DNA of 34,150 bases from Bacteroidota bacterium (GTDB lineage Bacteria > Bacteroidota > Bacteroidia > B-17B0 > Aurantibacillaceae), in NCBI GenBank assembly GCA_013816615.1, contig JACDED010000010.1, forward strand, positions 26,066-60,215, in the 5' to 3' direction. The position numbers and the translations under genes were made by a program. Of the stretch, positions 3,933 to 30,048 are shown one piece after another. Below the pieces are notes generated by a model. That model did not search any database. It was not told the origin of the DNA and was given only the letters and a program-made list of their open reading frames with translations. Positions within the stretch are counted from its first letter, which is position 1. Each line of letters starts with the position of its first letter.

Positions 3933-6900
3933 TTATTGTTTAAGAAGGGTTACATGCCCAACATAATTCTTTTTATTATTTTCAAGATCAGATATTGTTA
4001 TTTTGTAAATGTAAACCCCATCTTGTCCTGTAATGTTTGTGCCTTTTACTTTTCCATCCCAACCTTTTCTAAACTCAGTGGAAGTAAAGATCAATTCACC
4101 CCAACGGTCAAAGATCTCCATCTTATAATTGTCCTCGCTGATACCATAACCATAAGGCATAAATACTTCGTTGCGTCCGTTATTATCAGGTGTAAATGCA
4201 TTTGGTATATACACACCCATATCCGGTGTAATTTCTATAGTTCCGGTTGCGGTGTCTTTACAGCCTTTAGTGTTTATAGCTACCAGGTAAATTTGGTACG
4301 TACCTGCATAACTGTATATATGATCCGGATTTATTGCGAACGATGAATTTACATTCGGGAATGTGTAATCTCCAAAATCCCATACATAAGCATTTGCGCT
4401 TGAAGATGTATTATTAAAATGAATGGTAGGTTCCATTAAGCTGGCGCTGCCCGGATTAGTAAAAAAGCTTGCAACCGGTACAGAAAAAGCTTCAGCAGCA
4501 GTTAGATCTGTTATAGTTTGTTGGCAGCCGTATTTATTTGTTACCGTTAAAGCTAATGAGTATGTGCCCGGATTTACATATGTAATTATTTGTGGATTTA
4601 ATACAGGGCTTGCTGTTTGTGGCACTCCGCCAAATGTCCAGAAGAACGGATTAAAGTTTGTAGTTGTAGAATCTCCTATACCATTATACATTACAGTTAA
4701 TGGCGCACAGCCTTCACTTCTAACAGGTGTAAAGGTTGCATTTGGTGCGGGGTTAACAATAACTGTAAATATTGCTTTTGCATTTGGTATTGAACAACCA
4801 TCGTCAATTACAACAGAATAAGTACTTGTTTGTGCCGCTATATAATTTGCAGTGATCACGGCTGAAGAACCAATAGCAGCATTACTCCATGAATAATTAT
4901 ATGGTCCGCCTTTACCCGGACTTGTAATTGTTGGGCTTAACGTTAATGTTTTAGTATCACAAATTGTACTTGTTGAACCTACTGCAAGAAGTGGTGGTCT
5001 TACCCCTACAACTATTGTCTGAGGTCCAGCCGAACATCCGTTAGCGTCAGTAACTGAAACTGTATACTGCGTTGACATTGTCAGCGTTGGCGTACTATTC
5101 ATCCCCCCCGGAGATTGGAGGGTTGTAGTAGTGTTAGAAGAGAGGTCTGTGAGAGTGTAGGTGTAAGGCGTGCTTCCCCCCGAGGCCTGTCCGTATATCT
5201 GGGCGATGTTGCCAAAGCAGATGGTTTGAGGCGGTGAAGGAATGAGGCCTAACACGTTAGGCTGAGTGATGTTTACCGTTGTGTAAGTCTTACAGCCGTT
5301 ATTATCAGTAATGGTAGCAGAATATACGGCAGGGCCAAGACCGTTAATAACAGCAGTAGAGATTCCCGAAGGACTCCAGTTATAAGTAAAAGGGCTTACA
5401 CCCAAAGGACTTAAAGTAGCACTACCATTAGCATAATTAAAACAGGTCACATTGCTTGAAGTAGCGCTAACCGAAGGCAGGATAGCAGCCGTAATATTTA
5501 CCGAAGCAGTGATCACACAACCTTTAGCATCGGTAGTGGTAAGCACCCAGTTGCCCGGGGGCAGACCAGTAGCATTAGGGCTAAGCTGGGCAGTAGAAGT
5601 ATTCCAGTTATAGCTAAAAGCAGGACTACCACCACTGATCACTACATTAGCCGTACCGTTGGCATTGCCGCAGGTAGCCTGGGTAGTAGCAGTAGACTGG
5701 ATGGTTAACACGCTTGGCTCAGTGATGGTGTATGGGTTTTGCACCTGGCACCCTTGAGCATCTATAACTGCTAGCGTATAATTACCAGCAACTAAATTTG
5801 TAATAACAGGATTGTTGGCCGGTTGAGCCGGTGTCCAGGTAAGGGTGTAACCAGGAGAGCCGCCACTCACGCTTGTGTTGATCTGGCCGGTATTGTTACC
5901 AAAACAATTGTTTTGGATCACCGTATTAGTAGTAATGATCAAAGGATTAGGTTGGCCAATGTTTACTGTTTTAGTACTGGTACAATTGTTAGCATCAGAT
6001 ACTGTACAGGTATAAATACCACTTACCACGCCTGTTAGCACAGAATTTGTTTGAGCGGAAGGCGACCATAAATATGTATAGTTTGGCGTACCACCATTAG
6101 ATAAGATCTGTGCGGCACCATTGAACTGGCCGCTACAGGCCACATTGGTCACAGAACCAATAGCAGTTACTAATTGTGTAGGCTGGGTAATATTAACAAC
6201 GGCCCCACCCACACAACCAGCCAAATCGGTCACAGTAATACTGTGCAGGCCGCCGGGTAAATTATTTACGTTTTGAGTTGTTTGCGCCAGGTAGCTCCAT
6301 AAAAAGGTATTGCCACCGGCCCCACCCGATACGCTTACTGTAGCCCCACCATTGGCCTGTCCATAACAAACCACAGCAGCAGTAGCAGTAACTACTACCA
6401 CAGGAGCAGCAATATTAGGGATGACCGTGTTGGTGCTTATGGTACAACCGTTAGCATCCTTTACAGTAACGGTATAAGCCTGGGCCACTACGCTGGTAAT
6501 ACCCGCGTTAGTGAAAGAAGGATTAGAGCTCCATAAATAAGTATATCCACCCGCACCGCCACTGGCAGCAACAGAAGAACTACCGTTAGCCTGTCCGCAA
6601 TTGGTTGGTACCACGGTGGTGATATTAGCCACTAACTGGGCAGGCTGGGTGATAGTAATTGTTTTGGTGATCTGGCAACCATTACCATCGGTTAAAGTAA
6701 CCGTATGGTTACCCGGGGCTAAATTAGCACCTGTGTTTTGGGTGGTGTATAAGCTTGGCTGCCATAAGATGTTAGGAATACCCGTACCACCGCTATAGCC
6801 TACATTACCAATACCATTGTTGGCATTAAAGCAGGTAACGTTGGTAGAAGTAGCATTAGCCGTTAAGCCGGCAGGCTGTGTAATATTAGCTAGGGTGGTA

Positions 6901-9900
6901 GCAGTACAGGATTTAGAATCCGTTACAGTAATAGTATAAGTACCTGCAATTAAATTATTGCTGGTAGCAGAGCTTTGTGAGTTGCTCCAGCTGTAAGTAT
7001 AGGCAGGAGTTCCACCATTTGGTGCGGCAGTAGCAAAACCGTTATTGCCCCCACTACAGCTTACCGATCCAATAGCACTTAAGCTCAGGGTCAATAAAGC
7101 CGGCTGGGTGATATTAACCACCGTAGTAGCAGTACAGGAGTTTTGATCTGTTGCCAGCATGGTGAACTGTCCTGCACAAAGATTGGCCACACTTTGTGTG
7201 GTCAATGGCACAGGCCCACCCGTCCAGAAATAAGATACCGCCCCTATGGCATTAGATGTTGAGGCCAGGGCTAAACCATTGCAGGCATTAAAACAAGTAA
7301 CATTGGTAGAGGCAATGGCCGATAACATTTGTGGGGGATTGGTCAGGGCTACCGAGCCTTGTATGATACATCCCTTACTATCGGTTACTGTTACACCATA
7401 ATTACCCGGTCCCATACCACTTGGTGTGGCACTGCTACCACCCGCGCCCGGTGCAGGCAGCCAGGCATAGGTATAACCCGGTGTACCACCACTTACCCCT
7501 GCGTTAGCAGTTCCGTTGGTAGCATTAAAACATTTTGGATTAGTACCGCTTACATTGATGGTCAATGAAGCAGGCTGAACAATGCTTACAGAAGCAGAAG
7601 CTTTACAGCCGGCCGCATCGGTAAGGGTTACAGTATAAACACCATTTAATAAATTGGTTGCCGTTCCGGTATTTTGTCCGTTGCTCCAGTTATAAACCGG
7701 GAATCCCGGTCCGGGCGTACCACCACTAATGGTGGTAGTAGCAATACCATTGTTGCCGCCAAAGCAGTTTGGGTTGGTAAAGCTGGACACACCTATGGCA
7801 GGCCCCGAAGCGTTAGGAACGGTAGCTGCCAGAACATATAAACACCCATTACCATCTTTTACCTGAACGGTGTATGTGCCGGCAAATACGTTAACAAGGG
7901 ATTGGCCTATAAAACCTGTGCTCCAGGTATAGCTATAGGCAGGCGTACCACCTGTGGCTGTTGCCGAGGCTGCCCCGTTAGACTGGCTACAGGCAGCCGT
8001 TAAGGTGCTGGTATTAATAGTTACTGAAGTAGGTTGTGTAATAGTAATTGTTCTTACCTGTACACAGTTATTGGCATCGGTTACCTGTATGCTGTAATTA
8101 CCTGCCGCCAGGCCCGGTGCTACTGTTGTGGTAGAGCCGTTAGGTGACCATAAGTAGTTATAGCCCGGTGTACCTCCTGAGGCGCTCACAGTGGCACTAC
8201 CGCTGGCCTGTCCAAAACAAAGTGCAGGTGAGCCAGCCGGGGTTACTGTAATAGAGCTTGGCTGTGTTATTGTGCCAACCGCTGTTGATTTACATCCATA
8301 AAAATCGGTTACCGTTACTGTATAGTTACCCGGTGCTAAGGGGCCTGCTGTTTGGTTAGTAGAGGTATTGCTCCATGAAAAGGTCAGTGGGGCAGTTACA
8401 TTACCCACCATGTTAGCTGTTAAGCTACCATTGGCTGCTCCAAAACAAGTTACATGAGTGGTATTGGTAATGACTGCTGTTCCTCCCGGTATGGCACTGA
8501 TAGTGGCCACTGCTGTTAAGGTACAGTTCTTGGTATCTTTTATCAATACACTATAAGTGCCTGCTACAAGTCCTGTTGTTTGTGCCCCGTTACCTCCAAG
8601 GGGAGACCAGGTATAAGTATAAATAGGTGTTCCGCCGCTGGCTGCTACAGAGCCGGAACCGTTAGCGCTTGAACAATTAGCAGCGATCGTGCTTAGTGTT
8701 GCCGTTATTGGCAAGGGCTGTGTTACAGCAATGGTCTGGCTGAATGTACAGCCCAGGTTATCGATCACTGTTACATTATAGGCTCCTGCTGAAATGTTGG
8801 TATTAAAAGTATTGCTCACCTGGTTAGGCCCCCCATTGATATTGAATTGATAAGGGCTGGTACCCCCGCCTGCTGTAGCGCTTACCGTACCGTTATTGCC
8901 ACCGTTACAGGGTGGCTGCAAGGAGCTTAAGCTAAGTGTTAAGGCTGCCGGCTGGCTAATGCTTGTTGTTACTGTGGTTACACAGCCTAATGCATCTTTT
9001 ACGTTAATGGTATAAACCCCTGCCCCCAGGGCGGTGAATATGCCAAAACCATTGGTAATGTTACCCGGTGTTAAGGTATAGTTATAACCCGGTGTACCAC
9101 CACTGGTGCTTACACTAAAGCCACCATTGGCACCCCCAAAGCAGCTTACATTGGTAAGGGTAGCTATGGCCGAGCTGGGTGAGCCCGTATTGCCAATAGT
9201 AAAATTAACCGTTAAAGTACAGGAGTTAACATCCTGTATCACTACGCTTTTTGGCCCTGCAAGCATACCTGCCTGTATACCGCTGCCTACAAAAGGCCCC
9301 CCGTTAAATGAATATTGATAAGCCGGTGAACCACCCGTAACACCTGTTACCGTGGCACTACCATTAGCATTACCGCATGCCGCCGCTGTTACTGCTATAG
9401 TGGCAGCCGTTGGGCCACTTACCATAGCCACATTGGCCGTTAGTGAAAACGTACAGCCGTTAAGATCGCTTACCGTAATAACATGTGGGCCAAATGACTG
9501 GCTGTTGACTACCGAGCCACTTGCCACGCCATTTACACTAAAGCTATACGCCGGTGTGCCACCACTTACACCAGTTATGCCTATTATCCCAGTATTGCCT
9601 ACACATGCTGTAGGGCTCGTGGTAAATGTAAGGTTGGTGGGAGGAGGTGTATTAACTAAGGTTACTGTTTTCGTGAAAACGCAGTTATTAACGTCCTTTA
9701 CCGTTATTACGTAACTGCCCGCAGGTAAGTTGGTAAGAGGTGGTGCGGCAGAGAACGGACCGTTATTAACGCTATATGTAAAAGGGCCGGTGCCTCCTGT
9801 TACGGTTCCTAAAACAATTGTACCATTAGAGTTACCACAGGCAGGGTTAGTAAAGGTTGTTGCTAAATTTGTTACACCTGGTGTATTAGCAATGTTGGTT

Positions 9901-11360
9901 ACTGATGATGTAATACAACCAAAGTTATTGGTAAATGCAATTGTATAAGCGCCGCTTGGTAAACCTGTTGGTGTTTGTGTAACAATAGCTGTTCCATTTA
10001 ACGAAAAACTAATAACCGTTTGGCCGGCAGGAGTAGTGTTATTTATGAAGATACTTCCATTACTATTACCGCATATGGCCGGATTAGGTACCAACGTTAA
10101 ACTCGGGTGCGGGCTGATACTAATTACCGAAGTAGAAAATGAAGTGCAGCCAGTAACTGTTACTTCGTGATAAACTGTATATGTACCAGGTGCTGTAAAA
10201 CTTCCGGGGCCGTAGTTGGCAGAAGATCCCGCAGCAGGGGCTCCGGCTGTGGGATTAAAAGTATAACTATGTGTGCCGCCAGGTGTTGAAGCTGCGAAAT
10301 TATAACTGTTACCAATTAAACACTGTGTTGCTGTTGGTACTGTATAAGCAGGATCAGGCCCGGGATTAATAGTAATATTACTTGTGACCGTATGTGAACA
10401 GACACCATTAGAGACCACGTGTGTAATAGTATAAGGCCCTGCATTGGCGAAGGACATGACGGGATTGGCAATATTAGGGGAAGTTATTGTTACACCTGTA
10501 GCTGGATTGGCCGACCACGTGTGCGTAACACCGGCAGTGCCGGTATGATTAAAATTAATAAGAGCATTGGTACAGGCATTTCCGCCTGTAAATGCGGCAG
10601 AAGGTGTTGTACCCACACTAACAGAAATTGTTTTTGTAATAGGTGTTTGACATGGCGCATTCACAGTAACAGAATAAATTGTAGTAATAGCAGGTGAAAC
10701 AACGATACTTGTAGCGGTAGAACCACTTGGCATCCATGAATAAGTGGTGTTACCGCAAGCCGATGTTGCAATATTGTTAATAGATAAGGTTGCCGAGTTT
10801 GGCGCACAATAATTAGGTGGTACGGCGGTAACACTAAAATTTAATGCCGTAAAGGCTCCCGGTACAACAAAAGATGTCATGGCAGACCAAGGCCCTGCGG
10901 GTGGAACAGCGGTACTACCTCCTAACCATTCCCTGGATCGTAAAAAATAGGTTTGCCCGGGACATAAATTAGTAAAAGGTATAAAAACAGCAGTATATGG
11001 CTCCAACACACATTGGTCAGGCCAATTATTTCCTATTGTATAATTTGGCACATTCAATAATCCAAAATACCATGGATGTGCATTATACGTAGTGCCGGGT
11101 CCGGCCCAGTTATCAATTGTGTTTTGAACTGCAGGTGATGGTAAACCAGTTAAACCGGCTGCCGTACAGGCAATCTCTACCTGCATCCAATATGGCCCGC
11201 AACCACATGTAGACGCATTGGACGAACCGTTAACCGTAACGCCTGTTGCACCAACAGTAACGTTGTAATTTACCAGAGGTAAACCGTGACATGCTTTAAC
11301 TTTAAAACTTACAAAAGTTAAAAAGAAAAATACAATTGCTAGCTGTAACTTTTTATTCAT
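3933..11360 (-). CDS. Giant SprB-repeat/PKD surface protein with gliding-motility (type B T9SS) C-terminus
   Basis: This is a 2475-residue secreted protein, probably a cell-surface adhesin exported by the type IX system. It has a signal peptide (MNKKLQLAIVFFFLTFVSF..KA), then an N-terminal region of Ig/fibronectin-like character to about residue 410. From about 418 to 2050 there are 21 clear SprB-like repeats, averaging roughly 77 residues. Each has a Cys-x(3-4)-Asn-Gly start, a GGTPxYxYxW core and a GxYTVTVTDxxGC end. A degenerate 22nd repeat has its Cys near 2048. PKD-like domains follow (about 2150-2380). The last ~94 residues begin YIPNAFTPDNNG and contain IFDRWGELIF and GWDGK, matching the gliding-motility-associated C-terminal domain. 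SprB in Flavobacterium is the mobile gliding adhesin; orthology here is not shown. Base composition changes along the gene (see findings). Confidence 0.88.
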   Translation of the reverse strand: MNKKLQLAIVFFFLTFVSFKVKACHGLPLVNYNVTVGATGVTVNGSSNASTCGCGPYWMQVEIACTAAGLTGLPSPAVQNTIDNWAGPGTTYNAHPWYFGLLNVPNYTIGNNWPDQCVLEPYTAVFIPFTNLCPGQTYFLRSREWLGGSTAVPPAGPWSAMTSFVVPGAFTALNFSVTAVPPNYCAPNSATLSINNIATSACGNTTYSWMPSGSTATSIVVSPAITTIYSVTVNAPCQTPITKTISVSVGTTPSAAFTGGNACTNALINFNHTGTAGVTHTWSANPATGVTITSPNIANPVMSFANAGPYTITHVVSNGVCSHTVTSNITINPGPDPAYTVPTATQCLIGNSYNFAASTPGGTHSYTFNPTAGAPAAGSSANYGPGSFTAPGTYTVYHEVTVTGCTSFSTSVISISPHPSLTLVPNPAICGNSNGSIFINNTTPAGQTVISFSLNGTAIVTQTPTGLPSGAYTIAFTNNFGCITSSVTNIANTPGVTNLATTFTNPACGNSNGTIVLGTVTGGTGPFTYSVNNGPFSAAPPLTNLPAGSYVITVKDVNNCVFTKTVTLVNTPPPTNLTFTTSPTACVGNTGIIGITGVSGGTPAYSFSVNGVASGSVVNSQSFGPHVITVSDLNGCTFSLTANVAMVSGPTAATIAVTAAACGNANGSATVTGVTGGSPAYQYSFNGGPFVGSGIQAGMLAGPKSVVIQDVNSCTLTVNFTIGNTGSPSSAIATLTNVSCFGGANGGFSVSTSGGTPGYNYTLTPGNITNGFGIFTALGAGVYTINVKDALGCVTTVTTSISQPAALTLSLSSLQPPCNGGNNGTVSATAGGGTSPYQFNINGGPNQVSNTFNTNISAGAYNVTVIDNLGCTFSQTIAVTQPLPITATLSTIAANCSSANGSGSVAASGGTPIYTYTWSPLGGNGAQTTGLVAGTYSVLIKDTKNCTLTAVATISAIPGGTAVITNTTHVTCFGAANGSLTANMVGNVTAPLTFSWSNTSTNQTAGPLAPGNYTVTVTDFYGCKSTAVGTITQPSSITVTPAGSPALCFGQASGSATVSASGGTPGYNYLWSPNGSTTTVAPGLAAGNYSIQVTDANNCVQVRTITITQPTSVTINTSTLTAACSQSNGAASATATGGTPAYSYTWSTGFIGQSLVNVFAGTYTVQVKDGNGCLYVLAATVPNASGPAIGVSSFTNPNCFGGNNGIATTTISGGTPGPGFPVYNWSNGQNTGTATNLLNGVYTVTLTDAAGCKASASVSIVQPASLTINVSGTNPKCFNATNGTANAGVSGGTPGYTYAWLPAPGAGGSSATPSGMGPGNYGVTVTDSKGCIIQGSVALTNPPQMLSAIASTNVTCFNACNGLALASTSNAIGAVSYFWTGGPVPLTTQSVANLCAGQFTMLATDQNSCTATTVVNITQPALLTLSLSAIGSVSCSGGNNGFATAAPNGGTPAYTYSWSNSQSSATSNNLIAGTYTITVTDSKSCTATTLANITQPAGLTANATSTNVTCFNANNGIGNVGYSGGTGIPNILWQPSLYTTQNTGANLAPGNHTVTLTDGNGCQITKTITITQPAQLVANITTVVPTNCGQANGSSSVAASGGAGGYTYLWSSNPSFTNAGITSVVAQAYTVTVKDANGCTISTNTVIPNIAAPVVVVTATAAVVCYGQANGGATVSVSGGAGGNTFLWSYLAQTTQNVNNLPGGLHSITVTDLAGCVGGAVVNITQPTQLVTAIGSVTNVACSGQFNGAAQILSNGGTPNYTYLWSPSAQTNSVLTGVVSGIYTCTVSDANNCTSTKTVNIGQPNPLIITTNTVIQNNCFGNNTGQINTSVSGGSPGYTLTWTPAQPANNPVITNLVAGNYTLAVIDAQGCQVQNPYTITEPSVLTIQSTATTQATCGNANGTANVVISGGSPAFSYNWNTSTAQLSPNATGLPPGNWVLTTTDAKGCVITASVNITAAILPSVSATSSNVTCFNYANGSATLSPLGVSPFTYNWSPSGISTAVINGLGPAVYSATITDNNGCKTYTTVNITQPNVLGLIPSPPQTICFGNIAQIYGQASGGSTPYTYTLTDLSSNTTTTLQSPGGMNSTPTLTMSTQYTVSVTDANGCSAGPQTIVVGVRPPLLAVGSTSTICDTKTLTLSPTITSPGKGGPYNYSWSNAAIGSSAVITANYIAAQTSTYSVVIDDGCSIPNAKAIFTVIVNPAPNATFTPVRSEGCAPLTVMYNGIGDSTTTNFNPFFWTFGGVPQTASPVLNPQIITYVNPGTYSLALTVTNKYGCQQTITDLTAAEAFSVPVASFFTNPGSASLMEPTIHFNNTSSSANAYVWDFGDYTFPNVNSSFAINPDHIYSYAGTYQIYLVAINTKGCKDTATGTIEITPDMGVYIPNAFTPDNNGRNEVFMPYGYGISEDNYKMEIFDRWGELIFTSTEFRKGWDGKVKGTNITGQDGVYIYKITISDLENNKKNYVGHVTLLKQ

Positions 11361-22659: not shown

Positions 22660-24414
22660 TTATTTTTTTACCCCGTTTTCATAAGTAATTCTATTTATTT
22701 CTTTGCCGCTTTTGTCGTAAAATACCCATAAACCATGAGGAACACTTTGTACTTTACCTTTCCTTCTATCATTTACAATTTTATAATTGCATTCGCTTTG
22801 TAGTTTGGCATTTGTATAATACGATAAACTTGTGCCGCTTAGCTTGCCATTTTTAAAGTGTTGAATGCGATTAATTCCTCCGGTTTCATAATAATAGGTC
22901 CACTCGCCATGTTGATGTCCTTTACGGTATTTCCCTTTTGTGTCAACAAAGCTTCCTTTTTCAAACCATTGGATATAATTCCCATGTTTTATACCGTTTA
23001 CATACGAACAGGTTTCACGCGACTGCCCATTTTCGTAAAAATAATCCCATTTTCCCTGTTTTTTACCCTTACTGTTGTAATTTCCGGCATAATTTTGCTT
23101 TCCGTTAATGAACCAGCCCTGCCAATTATCTACCAAAAGTGCGTCTTTAAACGTACCCTCATCTTTTTTTGTACCGTTATCCCACCAACTTGTCCATAAA
23201 CCATTTTCTTTTCCTAAAACATAAGGGCCTTCCTGTAATTTCTTTCCATTTTCGAACCAAGTTACCCAAATACCCGCTTTTAATCCGGTATCATAATTTC
23301 CCTGGCGCCATTTTTCGCCGCCACGATAAAAATAATTCCAGGTAGCTGTTTGTTTATCATTTAAGTAATACCCTTCGCTTTCAATTTTTCCATTAGAGTA
23401 ATAGTAGGTCCATTTATCATCGCGCAGATCATCTTTTAAAGTGCCTATCATTTCGGGCTTGCCTTCAGGCGTATAAAATTTCCAAACCCCATTCTTCTTG
23501 TTATTAATAAATTCTCCTTCACTTTTTACTTTGTGGTTTGCAAAATAAGAAGAGTAATAACCGTTTAATATACCGTTAGCATAAGTTGCTTCATAATCTA
23601 ATTCGCCATTGGCATGAAAGAAACGCCATACACCATCCTGCAAACCATCTTTATAAAAGCCCATTGCTTTTACAACACCGTTATCATAGTTTGCAGTAAT
23701 GCTTCCATTACCACCCGATACAAGCTGTTTGCCCTGGTTATTCCAAAGATCTATCAGGTAAAGTGTACTATCTTTATATTCTTTTACAAATTTCTTTTGT
23801 CCGTTATCGTAATATTCTTCCCAACGGTTGCAGGCTTTGCCGTTACAATACTCCTGTATGGCCAATAACTTACCGGTTTTGGTATAAGTTTCAACTTTAC
23901 CATTACGTTTATCTTTTTCAAAAGCGCCTTTACTTTCAAGCTGACCATTATCAAAATAATAGGTCCACTCACCTTCTTTAATGCCATTTACAAAAGGCTC
24001 CCGGCTTTTTACTTTGCCGTTCTCATGAAAAGAGGTCCAGCTGCTATCTGCTTTATTATCCACAAACCTTGTCAGCTGCGAGATCTTTCCGGATTTAAAA
24101 TAATACACATTCGTTCCATTTTTTTGACCTTTATTATAGCGCTCAACGGCTTTTTTGCCGCCATCTTCATAATAAAATGTCCAAATACTATCTTCTTTCC
24201 CTAAGAAATGACTTAGCTTGCCCGAATAATAATACCCTTTTGAAAGTATACCACCGTTTTGATAATATTCAGTATAAGCACCATAAGGAACGCCTTTATA
24301 ATAATCGGTTTCGGATTTTAGTTGTGATTCTTTAGCATCGTAATACTCTTTTTTTAGTTGGGAAGAAAGAGAAAGGCTAAAGGCAAGAAGGAAAATTAGG
24401 TTTAAAAATCGCAT
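22660..24414 (-). CDS. Exported YwqK/MORN_2-repeat protein
   Basis: This is a 584-residue protein with a signal peptide (MRFLNLIFLLAFSLSLSSQ) followed almost entirely by about twenty repeats of 22-24 residues. The repeat pattern is G-x-W-x-x-Y/F-Y-x-N-G-x-x-x-x-x-x-x-Y-x-x-G-x-x-x-G, for example GEWTYYFDNGQLESKGAFEKD. This is the MORN_2/YwqK repeat. Automatic pipelines often call such proteins a toxin-antitoxin YwqK antitoxin, but no toxin is adjacent and the protein is exported. The repeats should form an elongated beta-hairpin array; the ligand is unknown. It lies 80 bases after the SGNH-like gene on the same strand. Confidence 0.85.
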   Translation of the reverse strand: MRFLNLIFLLAFSLSLSSQLKKEYYDAKESQLKSETDYYKGVPYGAYTEYYQNGGILSKGYYYSGKLSHFLGKEDSIWTFYYEDGGKKAVERYNKGQKNGTNVYYFKSGKISQLTRFVDNKADSSWTSFHENGKVKSREPFVNGIKEGEWTYYFDNGQLESKGAFEKDKRNGKVETYTKTGKLLAIQEYCNGKACNRWEEYYDNGQKKFVKEYKDSTLYLIDLWNNQGKQLVSGGNGSITANYDNGVVKAMGFYKDGLQDGVWRFFHANGELDYEATYANGILNGYYSSYFANHKVKSEGEFINNKKNGVWKFYTPEGKPEMIGTLKDDLRDDKWTYYYSNGKIESEGYYLNDKQTATWNYFYRGGEKWRQGNYDTGLKAGIWVTWFENGKKLQEGPYVLGKENGLWTSWWDNGTKKDEGTFKDALLVDNWQGWFINGKQNYAGNYNSKGKKQGKWDYFYENGQSRETCSYVNGIKHGNYIQWFEKGSFVDTKGKYRKGHQHGEWTYYYETGGINRIQHFKNGKLSGTSLSYYTNAKLQSECNYKIVNDRRKGKVQSVPHGLWVFYDKSGKEINRITYENGVKK

Positions 24415-24494: not shown

Positions 24495-25403
24495 CTACCT
24501 GGATTCTAAATAATTATTAAACCAAATACTCAATTGCCTGGCGCCGTTTTTATTTAAATGGTTGTAGTCAGCAAAATTGCTGCTGTTACAAAAAACACTA
24601 TCGGGAGGGATAATACAGGTAGCGTAAGTTAAATACTCTTTTTGAAGCGCCGGCCTTTTATAAACATTACCAAACGAAGGAATGTATAAAAAATAAAGCT
24701 TCACGTTTTTTTCGTCACAGGCCTTTTTAATTTTTTCAAAATAAAATTCCGAGTTGCGGTTCATTTTTTTTTGAGGTGTTTCGGTCAATAATTCCAAACT
24801 ATCTTCCACTCTTTTTGCAGTTATTGCAATGAGATCGGGATCTGTAAGGTTTGCCCAAAAACCATATTGCACCTTGGTTTCAAAAACAGTAGCATCCTCT
24901 ATAGTAAAAATTTTACTTCTTGTAAATTTTAAATTGCAAAGCCATTTGTTGTAAAGATTACTAATCACATCTCCATCGAGCGTATAAAAATCGTTGGCAA
25001 TTTTAGAAACCGGCATTAAAAAAGGTGTTAAAGGATGTGAGTTGCTTCCTTCTTCTGATCTAACTTCTAAAATAATTTTTTTTGGCTGATGTGTTTTTAA
25101 ATATTCTTCAATAAAAAAAGCATCCAGATTTCTTCCAAACCTGCAGTAACCCAAATTTAAAATTTTATTTTTGCCAAAAGCAGAATCGTAAACGCCATTC
25201 ATGATACGCGAAGAACCGAATAAAACAACATCCGCCTCTTTTTTATCTGTGTATAAAGCATTGTACATAAATTGTGCGCGGCCACTACAATCACCCAGCG
25301 CATTTTTAAATAAAAATTCTTTGTCAGGTACAATAAAAAGAACAGCAAAAAATAATAAGACCATTGTGCCACAAAAAATTATATATACTGTTCTTCTCTT
25401 CAT
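24495..25403 (-). CDS. SGNH/DltD-AlgJ-like membrane-anchored protein
   Basis: This is a 302-residue protein with one N-terminal membrane anchor (YIIFCGTMVLLFFAVLFIV, residues 7-25). A periplasmic domain with SGNH-hydrolase-like features follows. FGSSRIMNG contains candidate nucleophile Ser65, and DYNHLNKNGA near the end gives the Asp279-x-x-His282 pair. It shares a 1-nt stop/start overlap (TAATG) with the upstream MBOAT gene, implying translational coupling. Paired MBOAT and SGNH-like proteins (AlgI/AlgJ, DltB/DltD, PatA/PatB) pass acyl groups to extracellular polymers, so this is probably the acyl-transfer partner. The overall similarity to named families is weak, and the call rests on motifs plus context. 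Confidence 0.7.
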   Translation of the reverse strand: MKRRTVYIIFCGTMVLLFFAVLFIVPDKEFLFKNALGDCSGRAQFMYNALYTDKKEADVVLFGSSRIMNGVYDSAFGKNKILNLGYCRFGRNLDAFFIEEYLKTHQPKKIILEVRSEEGSNSHPLTPFLMPVSKIANDFYTLDGDVISNLYNKWLCNLKFTRSKIFTIEDATVFETKVQYGFWANLTDPDLIAITAKRVEDSLELLTETPQKKMNRNSEFYFEKIKKACDEKNVKLYFLYIPSFGNVYKRPALQKEYLTYATCIIPPDSVFCNSSNFADYNHLNKNGARQLSIWFNNYLESR

Positions 25404-26788
25404 TAAAATTGAAAATAAATAAAGCTTGGTGCGTTCTCGAAAACCGAAAATAAAAGTATAGCAATAAGTATTAAAAAATTACCGATCATATTATATTTAT
25501 ATTTAGATAAACCCTTTTTGTTATACTTTGATATCTCAAATAAAACAAATAACAAAAATGGTATAATGAAAAATAATTTACCGGTTATTAAATGAATAAC
25601 TCCTATGCCCGAAGTGTTATTAAAAGAAAGCAAAAGTTGCATATAGTTCACGAAATCGTAAAAGGACGCCGCCCTGAATAATGTAAACAATACGGCCACA
25701 AATAAGAAAACTAAAACTCCGGAAAGTACTTTTGGCAATCTAATTTTATTCAGGCTCTTCTCACCAATTAAACCCAGGCCATGAAAAAAGCCCCATAAGA
25801 TAAATGTAAAATTAGCGCCATGCCAAAATCCGGATGCTATAAATGTTATTAATAAATTAATGTTACGTTTAAATTTGGATATTTTATTTCCTCCTAAAGA
25901 AATATAAACATAATCTCTAAACCAGGTTGAAAGAGATATATGCCAACGCGACCAAAACTGTTTTAAGCTGGTTGAGAAATATGGAAAATAAAAGTTCTTA
26001 GAAAGCTTAAATCCTAATAATTGCGCCGTTCCTCTTGCAATGTCGCTATAACCACTAAAATCTGTATAGATCTGAATAGCAAAAGCGATCATCCCTAAAA
26101 ACAAAATTTCTGGACCATGATCTTGTGGATCAGCGTGAAGCTCATCCACGATCAAAGCGAGATTATCTGCAATAACTATCTTCTTAAAAAACCCGTAAAG
26201 AATTAAATTGATGCCCGTTTCAAAATACAAAAAGCTAAACTGTTTTTCTTTTTTAAATTGAGGTAATAGTTTTTTAGCGCGCTCAATTGGGCCTGCCACC
26301 ATTTGTGGAAAGAAACAAATAAAAGCAAAGTAATGCAGAGCAGATCTTTCAGGTTTAATTTTACCGCGATAAACATCAGTTACATAAGCAATAGATTGAA
26401 ATGTATAAAAGCTGATGCCCACCGGTAAAATTATTTTTAGTGTAGTAAATGAGGGGTGAAAACCAAATATATTTAAAAGATCAATAAACGATTCGGCAAA
26501 AAAATGATAATATTTAAAAAAGCCCAGTATAATTAAATTAATTAATACCGATGCAATTAACCAGGTTTTTTTTGCCTTTTGGTTTTCTGATTCGCCTATT
26601 TTTTGAGCAGATAAAAAATCAACGCCACTGGTAAAGAACAATAAAATTAAAAAGCGCCAATCCCAACAACCATAAAAGATACAGCCAGAAAGTAATAAGA
26701 TCCACACTTTGTGCTTTTTAAACACAAACCAATAAAGAATGTAAACACAAATAAAGAAAACTAAAAACATTGCTGAGTTAAAAAGCAT
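25403..26788 (-). CDS. MBOAT family O-acyltransferase
   Basis: This is a polytopic membrane O-acyltransferase of 461 residues, the AlgI/DltB/PatA type that moves acyl groups across the membrane to modify surface polymers. The family signature is intact: FFPQMVAGPIERAKKLLPQF, then QIYTDFSGYSDIARGTAQLLG, FWSRWHISLSTWFRDYVY and SGFWHGANFTFILWG, with the catalytic His at residue 323. Around ten hydrophobic helices are visible. The TAA stop overlaps the ATG of the SGNH-like gene, and its start is 12 bases after the GT39-like gene, making a tight three-gene unit. The acceptor polymer is unknown; acetyl is the commonest donor in the family. Confidence 0.93.
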   Translation of the reverse strand: MLFNSAMFLVFFICVYILYWFVFKKHKVWILLLSGCIFYGCWDWRFLILLFFTSGVDFLSAQKIGESENQKAKKTWLIASVLINLIILGFFKYYHFFAESFIDLLNIFGFHPSFTTLKIILPVGISFYTFQSIAYVTDVYRGKIKPERSALHYFAFICFFPQMVAGPIERAKKLLPQFKKEKQFSFLYFETGINLILYGFFKKIVIADNLALIVDELHADPQDHGPEILFLGMIAFAIQIYTDFSGYSDIARGTAQLLGFKLSKNFYFPYFSTSLKQFWSRWHISLSTWFRDYVYISLGGNKISKFKRNINLLITFIASGFWHGANFTFILWGFFHGLGLIGEKSLNKIRLPKVLSGVLVFLFVAVLFTLFRAASFYDFVNYMQLLLSFNNTSGIGVIHLITGKLFFIIPFLLFVLFEISKYNKKGLSKYKYNMIGNFLILIAILLFSVFENAPSFIYFQF

Positions 26789-26799
26789 ATTACTTTGCT

Positions 26800-28215
26800 T
26801 TACTTTTGAATATCATAAATGGTATAATCAGGATTAGATAAAAGCTGTTTGTACTGCAAGGAAATTTCGTTTCCAAAAGCTTTCTTCAGAATTATAATAT
26901 ATTTTAATTTCTTTTTTCTTAGGCTTTCAATATAAGCTGTATCTGCAATAAGCTCATTCTTTTCTATCCAACCCTTGCGATGCGCAAAATAAACCGGCGT
27001 TGGCACTTCGCCGCTATTTATAAGTATGAGGTCGGTTGGCTTGCTAAACTGATCAAGATCTTTTTCGAGATTGAGAATGGCCAGGTTTTTTTCTTTTATA
27101 TAAAAATCACTGTTACTAACAAGTATACATTCCGCTGCAATTAATGCCAAAAACACAACAGTAAGTTTGTTGTTTTTAATAAGAGAAAGGCCATAAGCGC
27201 AAATAAAGGCCATAACAGGTGCAAACGGTACAATATAATATGTGTGATTGTAAAATGTTGCGCCGCCTTTAAAAACTATTACTAAAAATGCAAAGAAACA
27301 TAATCCAAAAACCAATAAAACATTTTTCTCTTTTCTTTTTATGGCTACAAATAATGCGCAAATAAATAGTATAAACCCCGTATATCCTACAGCGGCGTTA
27401 TAAAATTTTTGCAGTGCTTTATTTAAATTCGAAAAGATCTCAACCATTCCTTCAACTATTCCTTTGCCCATAAAAAAATGGTCGAAGCCATGCTCTTTTG
27501 TTATTCGCGGCACCCAATAAAAATAATATACTGAAACAAACGACATGATCACTAAAGAAATAATTATGAAAAGACTTTTATTTAAAATTGGAATTTTTTT
27601 ATCGAATAAAAACACAATCATTACAACTAAAAGATAACCTGAGGGTAGCTTGGATAATATACCTGCCAATACCAATGTAAAATAAAGTAAAAGGTTTTTT
27701 AAACTGTTTTTCTGGTCAAAATAATTACTCCCATAATATATTCCCGCTATTACAAGCGACATTGAAAATGTATCGGGCATTATTTTTCTTGAATACGTAA
27801 ACCACACTGAGAATAAAAGAATAAAGGTTGCTTTAAATGCTATGGATATATTAAAATATTTATGAACGAGCTTATAAAAATACCACAAACCAAAACACGA
27901 AAAAACAAGGGTAATAAGTCTGCCATACCAGTGCGCATAACCAAATACAAGTGAAACTAAATAAATTAAGTAATTAAGTATTGGAAACTCCATACCGGTA
28001 ATGCCGGTTTTTTCTCCTGCAAAATCTACTTTAGGAAGAAGGATATTATTCTCGCCCTCAAAAAAATTACGGGCAGGCATTGTTACTGTTGTTTGTCGCC
28101 AGTTATGCGAAACTTCTAATGGAGGATTAGTAATATGAAAAAGCCGAACTATAAAAAAAAGAAAGATCCAGAACCGGATATCGCCTAGGATGCTTTTCAT
28201 TTGCATTGTCTTCAT
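26800..28215 (-). CDS. GT39/ArnT-like membrane glycosyltransferase
   Basis: This is a 471-residue polytopic protein of the GT-C fold, related to the dolichyl-phosphate-mannose mannosyltransferase (PMT)/ArnT group. These enzymes take sugar from a polyprenyl-phosphate donor on the periplasmic side. The first extracytoplasmic loop has EVSHNWRQTT (His37 and Arg40) and GMEFPILNYLIY, the usual acidic/HxWRQ block of Bacteroidota members. About ten transmembrane helices follow and then a soluble C-terminal part. It begins 42 bases after lepA and ends 12 bases before the MBOAT gene, so it may be read with both. The sugar and the acceptor (protein, lipid or glycan) cannot be told. Confidence 0.82.
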   Translation of the reverse strand: MKTMQMKSILGDIRFWIFLFFIVRLFHITNPPLEVSHNWRQTTVTMPARNFFEGENNILLPKVDFAGEKTGITGMEFPILNYLIYLVSLVFGYAHWYGRLITLVFSCFGLWYFYKLVHKYFNISIAFKATFILLFSVWFTYSRKIMPDTFSMSLVIAGIYYGSNYFDQKNSLKNLLLYFTLVLAGILSKLPSGYLLVVMIVFLFDKKIPILNKSLFIIISLVIMSFVSVYYFYWVPRITKEHGFDHFFMGKGIVEGMVEIFSNLNKALQKFYNAAVGYTGFILFICALFVAIKRKEKNVLLVFGLCFFAFLVIVFKGGATFYNHTYYIVPFAPVMAFICAYGLSLIKNNKLTVVFLALIAAECILVSNSDFYIKEKNLAILNLEKDLDQFSKPTDLILINSGEVPTPVYFAHRKGWIEKNELIADTAYIESLRKKKLKYIIILKKAFGNEISLQYKQLLSNPDYTIYDIQK

Positions 28216-28257: not shown

Positions 28258-30048
28258 TTAATCGTTCAGTTTTAAAACCGCCATGAACGCACTTTGTGGA
28301 ATCTCTACATTCCCAACTTGCTTCATACGTTTTTTACCTTCTTTTTGTTTCTCTAATAATTTACGCTTACGGCTAATATCACCACCATAACATTTTGCGG
28401 TAACGTCTTTACGCATAGCGCTTATTGTTTCACGAGAAATGATTTTTGCACCGATAGCAGCCTGGATTGGGATCTCGAACTGTTGTTTCGGAATTAGTTC
28501 TTTTAATTTTTCGCAGATCTTTTTGCCAAACTGGTATGAATTACTTCTATGAATTAAACATGATAAAGCATCTACCGGCTCGCCTTTTAAAAGTATATCT
28601 AACTTAACAAGATCAGAATCGCGCATGCCTGTTGGATGATAATCGAACGAAGCATAGCCTTTTGAAATAGATTTTAAACGATCAAAGAAATCGAACACAA
28701 CTTCGCCCAATGGCATTTCAAATACTAACTCTACACGGTCTGCCGTTAAATAATTTTGTGTTACAATTTGTCCGCGTTTTTCGATACATAAGCTCATTAC
28801 CGGACCAATAAAATCAGATTTGGTAATAATGTTTGCTTTAATATAAGGTTCTTCGATACGATCAATACGACCCGGATCCGGAAGATCACTTGGATTATTT
28901 ACAGTTACAACATCGCCGTTGGTTTGATAGGCAATGTACGATACGTTAGGAACGGTTGTAATAACCGTCATATTAAACTCACGCTCTAAACGTTCCTGAA
29001 CAATTTCCATGTGCAGCATTCCTAAAAAGCCGCAACGAAATCCAAAGCCCAAAGCTAAAGATGATTCCGGCTCCCAGGTTAAAGAAGCATCATTCAGTTG
29101 CAGCTTCTCCATACTGTAACGCAGCTCTTCAAAATCTTCGGTGTCTACCGGGTAAATACCAGCAAATACCATTGGTTTTACTTCTTCAAAACCATGAATC
29201 CCTTCAGTGCAGGGACGGTCAAAATGTGTAATGGTATCTCCTACTTTTACTTCTTTTGCACTCTTAATTCCAGAAATAATATATCCTACATCGCCCGTGC
29301 TTAGTTCAGGACGAGGCTCCGGCTTTAATCTTAAAACACCTACTTCATCTGCATTATAAAATGCACCTGTATTTACGAATTTTACTTTCTCACCTTTTTT
29401 TATGGTGCCATTAATAATTTTAAAATAGGCGATGATACCACGGAACGAATTAAATACAGAGTCGAAGATCAATGCCTGTAAAGGCGCATTAGGATCACCA
29501 ACCGGTGCTTTTATTCTTTCGATAATGGCAGAAAGAATTTCTTCAATGCCCATTCCTGTTTTTCCGCTGGCAGGAATAATATCACTTCTTTCGCAACCAA
29601 TAAGCTCAACAATCTGATCCATTACCACTTCCGGTTCTGCACTTGGCAGATCCATTTTATTTAAAATAGGAATGATGTGAAGATCGTGTTCTAATGCTAA
29701 ATATAAATTAGAAATAGTTTGTGCCTGGATTCCCTGTGCCGCATCTACAATTAATAAAGCGCCTTCGCACGCAGCAATAGAGCGGGAAACCTCGTAACTA
29801 AAATCCACGTGGCCGGGAGTATCAATTAAATTCAAAACAAATTTTTCGCCTTTGTATGGGTAATCCATTTGAATGGCGTGACTCTTAATAGTAATGCCAC
29901 GTTCTTTTTCAAGATCCATATCATCGAGTACCTGCGCCTGCATATCGCGTTTATTTACAGTTCCAGTATATTCTAATAAACGGTCTGCTAAGGTGCTTTT
30001 ACCATGGTCAATATGTGCAATAATACAAAAGTTACGAATGTTCTTCAT
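28258..30048 (-). CDS. lepA: Elongation factor 4 (LepA) GTPase
   Basis: This ribosome-associated translational GTPase binds stalled or initiating ribosomes at the inner face of the membrane. At 596 residues it is a typical length. The G-domain motifs are complete: [10 protein letters not shown] (G1), RGITIKS (G2), DTPGHVDF (G3) and NKMDLPSA (G4). The EF4-specific region [20 protein letters not shown] is present, as is the C-terminal domain ending in [20 protein letters not shown], which is diagnostic of LepA. The next gene downstream starts 42 bases away on the same strand, and the phosphatase gene lies 95 bases upstream. Confidence 0.97.

Follow-up and report, generated by a model that had tools for sequence, protein, structure and literature searches.

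Introduction

Bacterial membrane-bound O-acyltransferases (MBOATs) that are encoded together with SGNH proteins carry, according to PMC12148441, a C-terminal FXYXXF motif whose tyrosine becomes acylated and delivers the acyl group to the serine of the SGNH partner; that source presents the shuttle as demonstrated in PatA and also describes it for DltX, and the pairs it names act on polymers. Here, we analyze a 34,150-nucleotide stretch of DNA (the window) from a Bacteroidota bacterium of the family Aurantibacillaceae (assembly GCA_013816615.1, contig JACDED010000010.1, positions 26,066 to 60,215), in which genes for a GT-C membrane glycosyltransferase (GT), an MBOAT acyltransferase and an SGNH-like protein lie between lepA and a gene for a MORN_2/YwqK-repeat protein (the MORN gene). 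On balance, we consider it probable that this interval is a swappable slot for extracytoplasmic glycan-modifying enzymes, here occupied by a GT-C enzyme that would attach a sugar and an MBOAT-SGNH pair that would carry out O-acylation.

Three described systems come closest to the pair. The peptidoglycan O-acetyltransferase PatA-PatB likewise combines an MBOAT with an SGNH partner and shares the catalytic histidine, the tyrosine of the C-terminal FXYXXF motif and the Ser/Asp-x-x-His residues (PMC12148441), whereas in the window a GT-C gene lies upstream, no third, esterase gene stands beside the pair, and the SGNH-like protein is too diverged for any Pfam match. The teichoic acid D-alanylation proteins DltB-DltD provide both the nearest curated MBOAT model and the nearest solved structures, but here the shuttle motif is located on the MBOAT itself rather than on a DltX microprotein, the MBOAT scores below the cut-off of the DltB model, and DltA does not rise above its cut-off in the genome. 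Finally, AlgI/AlgJ/AlgX and WssH/WssI, which serve alginate and cellulose acetylation, follow the same MBOAT-SGNH logic (PMC12148441), yet none of the six other nearby open reading frames (ORFs) scanned here matches a polysaccharide-synthesis family, and AlgX itself is a weak structural match. Among titles and the beginnings of abstracts, no paper on a unit of GT-C and MBOAT-SGNH genes or on a slot after lepA was recognized, which does not prove that none exists.

Variation of the lepA-MORN slot across the genus

The slot could be read in 38 of the 40 genomes of the genus, the exceptions being G031, which gave no MORN match, and G020, in which the MORN gene stands at a contig end. Its contents were counted in the 24 genomes in which both lepA and the MORN gene border the interval; 14 genomes with no lepA beside it (G029, G035, G002, G016, G027, G026, G014, G015, G033, G036, G032, G024, G008 and G062) were left out of these counts. 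Among the 24, a PMT_2-type GT is found in 16, a GH16 gene in 15, a sulfatase-type gene in two and the MBOAT-SGNH pair in two, while five slots (G034, G017, G004, G005 and G025) are empty, meaning that no ORF of at least 80 aa was called. Assignment by Pfam covers 10 of the 16 slot GTs, five of the 15 GH16 genomes and both sulfatases, the remainder being assigned by similarity. The slot GTs form three sequence groups recognized by BLAST or profile, together with a fourth (G012, G011, G013) that matches none of those references. An EIDxxE-type motif is present in 14 of the 21 ORFs of GH16 size and missing from seven, one of which, from locus L177, is a GT87 protein. The sulfatase-domain membrane protein of G006 and G022 appears LtaS-like in its layout. 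Four sister genomes (G023, G010, G009 and G003) have a window-type GT in the slot, where it is accompanied by a GH16 gene but not by an MBOAT-SGNH pair.

Similar occupants adjoin the MORN gene in genomes where lepA is not alongside: G029 holds a GH16 gene and a 607-aa ORF of sulfatase-protein size, G035 a GT and a GH16 gene, and G062 a sulfatase gene and a remnant of the pair. In this remnant (L207:1820-2046), MBOAT residues 1-39 are joined directly to the 37 C-terminal residues of the SGNH protein, and the gene upstream is the sulfatase-type ORF, not a GT. The fusion either is what a deletion through the middle of the pair left behind or stems from faulty assembly (the genome is 81% complete, in 710 contigs); as a relic, it shows turnover in the slot.

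The slot genes also differ strongly between the window's own genome (G000) and G007, the second species with the complete trio. Nonsynonymous divergence (dN) is 0.29 for the GT, 0.30 for the SGNH-like protein and 0.12 for the MBOAT, against 0.015 for lepA and 0.03-0.06 for the MORN gene and the next two genes (full range 0.015-0.056), although with synonymous divergence (dS) at 0.8-2.1 these values are rough (window 24495-28215 compared with L077:8892-12605). The dN of the GT and SGNH genes is at least five times that of lepA, the MORN gene and the next two genes.

In gtr-type O-antigen cassettes, gtrA flippase and gtrB synthase genes stand beside the GT gene, and the Oac proteins of Shigella are of the AT3 type. 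Pfam revealed no gtrA/gtrB-like gene beside the GT of the window, the direct neighbors of which are lepA and the MBOAT gene, and a phage-borne cassette was rejected because PHROGs gave no match. In these two respects the locus is unlike the O-antigen modification of Shigella flexneri, in which glucosylation, O-acetylation and phosphoethanolamine addition are brought about by exchangeable genes (PMC3728103); the likeness is one of analogy only, namely of optional changes made to one surface glycan through exchangeable genes.

The acyl-transfer pair

The MBOAT matches Pfam PF03062 at 95.8 bits (cut-off 27); its nearest curated model is that of DltB (TIGR04091, 158.3 bits, under the cut-off of 375), and the nearest solved structures are those of DltB (PDB 6bug, E 4.9e-32). 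All 10 aligned MBOATs share its His323, and the protein ends in FIYFQF, which fits the FXYXXF shuttle. Across the collected loci, this motif is terminal in 59 of 59 full-length MBOATs and in 0 of 674 other ORFs of at least 250 aa; the 59 include the window's own protein, which also went into the profile that found them. In the SGNH-like protein, G63, S65, D279, H282 and G287 are invariant in all 17 members of the family alignment (A5). It adjoins the MBOAT and combines the serine nucleophile and the Asp-x-x-His motif with an N-terminal anchor; crude hydropathy counts give one hydrophobic segment here, at the N-terminus, six in the MBOAT and eight in the GT.

The preliminary description of this locus had proposed an MBOAT with an intact catalytic His323 and a membrane-anchored SGNH-like protein with Ser65, Asp279 and His282, working together as an acylation machine. 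All four residues occupy the positions claimed for them, and the catalytic residues together with the C-terminal motif support the proposed function; at the level of sequence anatomy, the two proteins are securely assigned as a typical MBOAT-SGNH acyl-transfer pair. Beyond the genus, an MBOAT gene lies directly upstream of the SGNH-family gene in nine of nine loci read with wide flanks, as it does in G037, and in four (L109, L111, L112, L114) but not two (L110, L113) of six loci read with narrow flanks. In L177 and L179, from another genus of the same family, the MBOAT-SGNH pair adjoins GH16 and fatty-acid-hydroxylase genes (Pfam on L177). The SGNH family is related by hhalign (E 7e-18) to the DUF1574-matching neighbor of another MBOAT, and one of its own 17 members matches DUF1574. 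The genome encodes nine MBOATs, of which the seven listed by place were read. That of the window clusters with proteins that come from other families of the class and are partners of its own SGNH family (support 80/96, below the starred threshold), within a wider clade supported at 96/95.

D-alanylation of the Dlt type was rejected, since the MBOAT falls far below the DltB cut-off and no DltA rises above its own: the best candidate in the genome, a draft of 97.4% completeness, reaches 77.2 bits against a cut-off of 559.85. Given this lack of a DltA above cut-off, acetyl-CoA would be the likeliest acyl donor. The MBOAT would then use His323 to take up the acyl group, most likely acetyl, and move it across the inner membrane to Tyr458 in its terminal FIYFQF, from which the anchored SGNH protein would accept it on Ser65, in a triad with Asp279 and His282, and pass it to a surface glycan. 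The GT would act on the same, presumably periplasmic, side of the membrane, adding a sugar from a polyprenyl-phosphate donor independently and optionally; its target is probably of the same class of glycan as that of the pair, and the two may even share one acceptor.

The glycosyltransferase as an optional neighbor

The GT matches Pfam PMT_2 at 48.5 bits (E 1.5e-12, cut-off 26.1) and the Alg9-like Glyco_transf_22 at 34.6 bits (cut-off 23.8), with no match to the canonical PMT model PF02366 at E 0.1; its earlier labeling as GT39 agrees with the first of these results and not with the last, and is looser than the evidence. E34, D64 and E76, invariant in nine of nine aligned sequences (alignment A1), are candidate catalytic acids. 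A search of the PDB with the GT returned nothing at E 1, and a scan of the genome contigs with it gave one weak relative, L064, which was not used.

Across 395 genomes of the class Bacteroidia, in each of which the best four or five first-look candidates were scored, 53 contain the close GT family (A1, E up to 1e-60) and 16 contain the SGNH family (A2, E up to 1e-5), and both occur together in a single genome, the window's own. Thus, 52 of the 53 GT-positive genomes have no SGNH protein of the window's family at E 1e-5. Moreover, among the GT loci read with 1.5-kb flanks in 29 of the 52 other GT-positive genomes, none has an MBOAT beside the GT. The three genes had been described as a compact module that would be refuted if the GT were routinely found without the pair and the genes shared no transcript; the GT is indeed found without the pair, in 52 of 53 genomes, at 29 of 29 loci and in the four sister genomes named above. 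An obligate GT-MBOAT-SGNH module was therefore rejected: the families co-occur in one of 395 genomes, the trio is intact in two of 40, and no GT locus read elsewhere has an MBOAT. The GT is an optional neighbor of the pair, usually found without it in related bacteria.

Where the trio does occur, it is more than a chance observation, because G007 has the three genes at the same site and in the same arrangement. In a tree that carries a long-branch warning, the GT of G000 is sister to that of G007 (support 97/99), and on this ground the trio in these two genomes is an inherited unit.

The three genes might nevertheless be chance neighbors, an orphan GT and an MBOAT-SGNH pair gained by lateral transfer that settled, functionally unconnected, at one permissive site downstream of lepA, which we regard as possible but doubtful. 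The varied, MBOAT-free contexts of the GT relatives (29 of 29 loci), the grouping of the window MBOAT with those of other families and the many different genes that the slot accepts are all in keeping with such an origin. However, the slot occupants that could be assigned to a family are glycan or envelope enzymes, apart from one kelch/secretion-tail protein; GT and pair stand closely spaced in two diverged species; and a second trio of the same composition exists.

A second trio at a CoA-transferase locus

This second trio lies in the same genome on contig C209 (L095), where a 542-aa GT (GT542), a 468-aa MBOAT and a 347-aa SGNH-like protein (SGNH347) are encoded between genes for CoA-transferase A and CoA-transferase B. 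GT542 scored 21.6 bits against PMT_2 in one scan, below the cut-off, and 27.6 bits, above it, in another; it is about 24% identical to the window GT and shares with it the HxWRQ...EFP subclass (hhalign E 1.6e-17), the exact EFP being absent from two of six sampled GTs of this locus. The SGNH label of SGNH347 rests on motifs: hhalign aligns the window's SGNH family with its N-terminal part only, at a probability of 54.9%. The MBOATs of this locus form a clade of their own (99/92). Duplication of one trio into the other was rejected in view of these separate clades, with the long-branch warning for the GT tree, and because of this separation the association of a GT with an MBOAT-SGNH pair would either have arisen at least twice or be very old.

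Matches to SGNH347 occur in 34 of the 40 genus genomes, 30 of which can be read upstream, contig ends cutting off G031, G010, G002 and G020. The MBOAT gene is immediately preceded by a GT gene in 16 of the 30 and not in the other 14, several of which have another PMT_2-type gene (GT529 type) slightly downstream. In 26 of the 34 genomes with a match, the sequence read covers the genes for both CoA-transferase subunits, and an MBOAT-SGNH-like pair, often with a GT, recurs between them (L095:4695-10216, L066-L091, L187-L206).

These observations divide over the proposal that sugar addition and acylation are coupled: the genome's own second trio, built from other lineages, favors it in part, as does the variable slot, and the 14 genomes with no GT upstream speak against it. 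In its strict form, a joint pathway in which the sugar placed by the GT is subsequently acylated by the MBOAT-SGNH pair, we judge the proposal unlikely. It would account for the order kept in G000 and G007 with sister GTs, for the second trio, whose GT belongs to that of the window in subclass and immediately precedes the MBOAT in 16 of 30 genomes, and for a chance of 0.022 that a PMT_2 neighbor lies upstream of at least one of the genome's eight further MBOATs, a rough estimate that assumes 1,100 bases per gene and ignores strand and clustering. It fits poorly with the single class genome that holds both families, with a second pair that lacks a directly upstream GT in 14 genomes, with sister genomes that keep the GT and not the pair, and with the relic of G062, which follows a sulfatase-type gene rather than a GT and lowered our confidence in this pathway slightly further.

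The slot reading can also be widened to a genus-wide system of surface-glycan diversification, in which unrelated GT-C, GH16, LtaS-like and MBOAT-SGNH enzymes replace one another, as the relic of G062 would illustrate, and remodel one shared glycan, the window's version combining sugar addition with O-acylation and the second trio marking a recurring optional module of GT-C and MBOAT-SGNH genes; we regard this extension as possible but less likely than not.

Evidence weighing against the slot reading

Several results count against the narrower reading, of a swappable slot for glycan-modifying enzymes with a GT and an acylating pair in the window. In the slot itself, some occupants could be assigned to no family (a 451-aa ORF in G010, ORFs of 364 and 216 aa in G003, and ORFs in G028, G021 and G001), and that of G018 is the kelch/secretion-tail protein mentioned above; because of these, insertion at this site could be neutral. 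The intact trio, searched for with the SGNH protein, is confined to G000 and G007 among the 40 genomes, and GH18, beyond lepA and outside the slot, has a dN of 0.15 and is thus fairly fast too. None of the six other ORFs scanned with Pfam, at 20.4-34.0 kb of the window, matches a polysaccharide-synthesis family, and two of them match no Pfam family at all.

At the protein level, the first external loop of GT39/PMT enzymes carries an acidic catalytic motif, and the textbook DE motif is absent from this loop of the GT. The SGNH fold of the window protein, which matches no Pfam family, is proposed from motifs; its matches in the PDB (a GDSL-like lipase, AlgX at E 0.31 and two chains named as acetyltransferases) lie at E 0.15-0.7, an AlphaFold2 model of the protein alone reached a pLDDT of 39.6, and hhalign found no relation between its family and an AlgX-type protein. 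In addition, scans of the locus for promoters and terminators stayed at the chance level of shuffled sequence, and for this reason co-transcription of the trio is suggested by gene spacing.

A further alternative is protein O-glycosylation with an acylated glycan, in which the PMT-like GT would modify exported proteins, for example the MORN-repeat protein. The PMT_2 similarity of the GT and the signal-like N-terminus of the adjoining repeat protein are compatible with it, but the MORN gene is a core gene, found in 39 of the 40 genus genomes and also where the interval is empty, and the named MBOAT-SGNH pairs of the source cited above act on polymers; we hold this alternative to be highly improbable. 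For the same reason, the earlier suggestion that the YwqK-repeat protein is a partner of the trio was not borne out, and a dedicated role was rejected for a core gene that is independent of the trio. In G005 (L174), a stop codon divides the MORN gene into ORFs of 313 and 263 aa.

Organization of the locus

The three membrane-protein genes are tightly packed on the minus strand, as first described (Table 1). The proposed overlap of one base between the MBOAT and SGNH genes is confirmed, and the gap between the GT and MBOAT genes measures 11 bases rather than 12. From the end of lepA to the GT start there are 42 bases, and from the SGNH stop to the MORN start 80. Elsewhere in the window, an ORF of 2475 aa (3933-11360) is partly matched at several loci in related genomes.

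Table 1. Genes and motif of the lepA-MORN locus, in window coordinates.
Feature	Position	Strand	Basis
GT-C membrane glycosyltransferase, PMT_2 type, HxWRQ...EFP subclass, 471 aa	26800..28215	-	Pfam PMT_2, alignment A1, motif check
MBOAT acyltransferase, DltB-like, 461 aa, His323 in GFWHG	25403..26788	-	Pfam, TIGR04091, PDB DltB 6bug, alignment
C-terminal acyl-shuttle motif of the MBOAT, F456-I-Y458-F-Q-F461, with stop codon	25403..25423	-	Sequence
SGNH-like acyltransferase partner (putative), 302 aa, one N-terminal anchor, Ser65/Asp279/His282	24495..25403	-	Invariant positions in A5
lepA, border of the variable slot, outside the machine	28258..30048	-	Pfam LepA_C and GTP_EFTU, synteny
MORN_2/YwqK-repeat protein, other border of the slot, core gene	22660..24414	-	Pfam MORN_2; 39/40 genus genomes

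Conclusions

The pair itself is a known kind of machine, and the variable slot is the more interesting by-product of its analysis. A standard MBOAT-SGNH pair with an intact shuttle motif can occur apart from recognizable polysaccharide genes, beside sugar transferases that are optional. The small exchangeable slot after lepA is a site at which surface-glycan chemistry may differ between close species and, if its occupants act on one glycan, it would represent a chromosomal counterpart of phage-borne serotype conversion in a little-studied group of bacteria.

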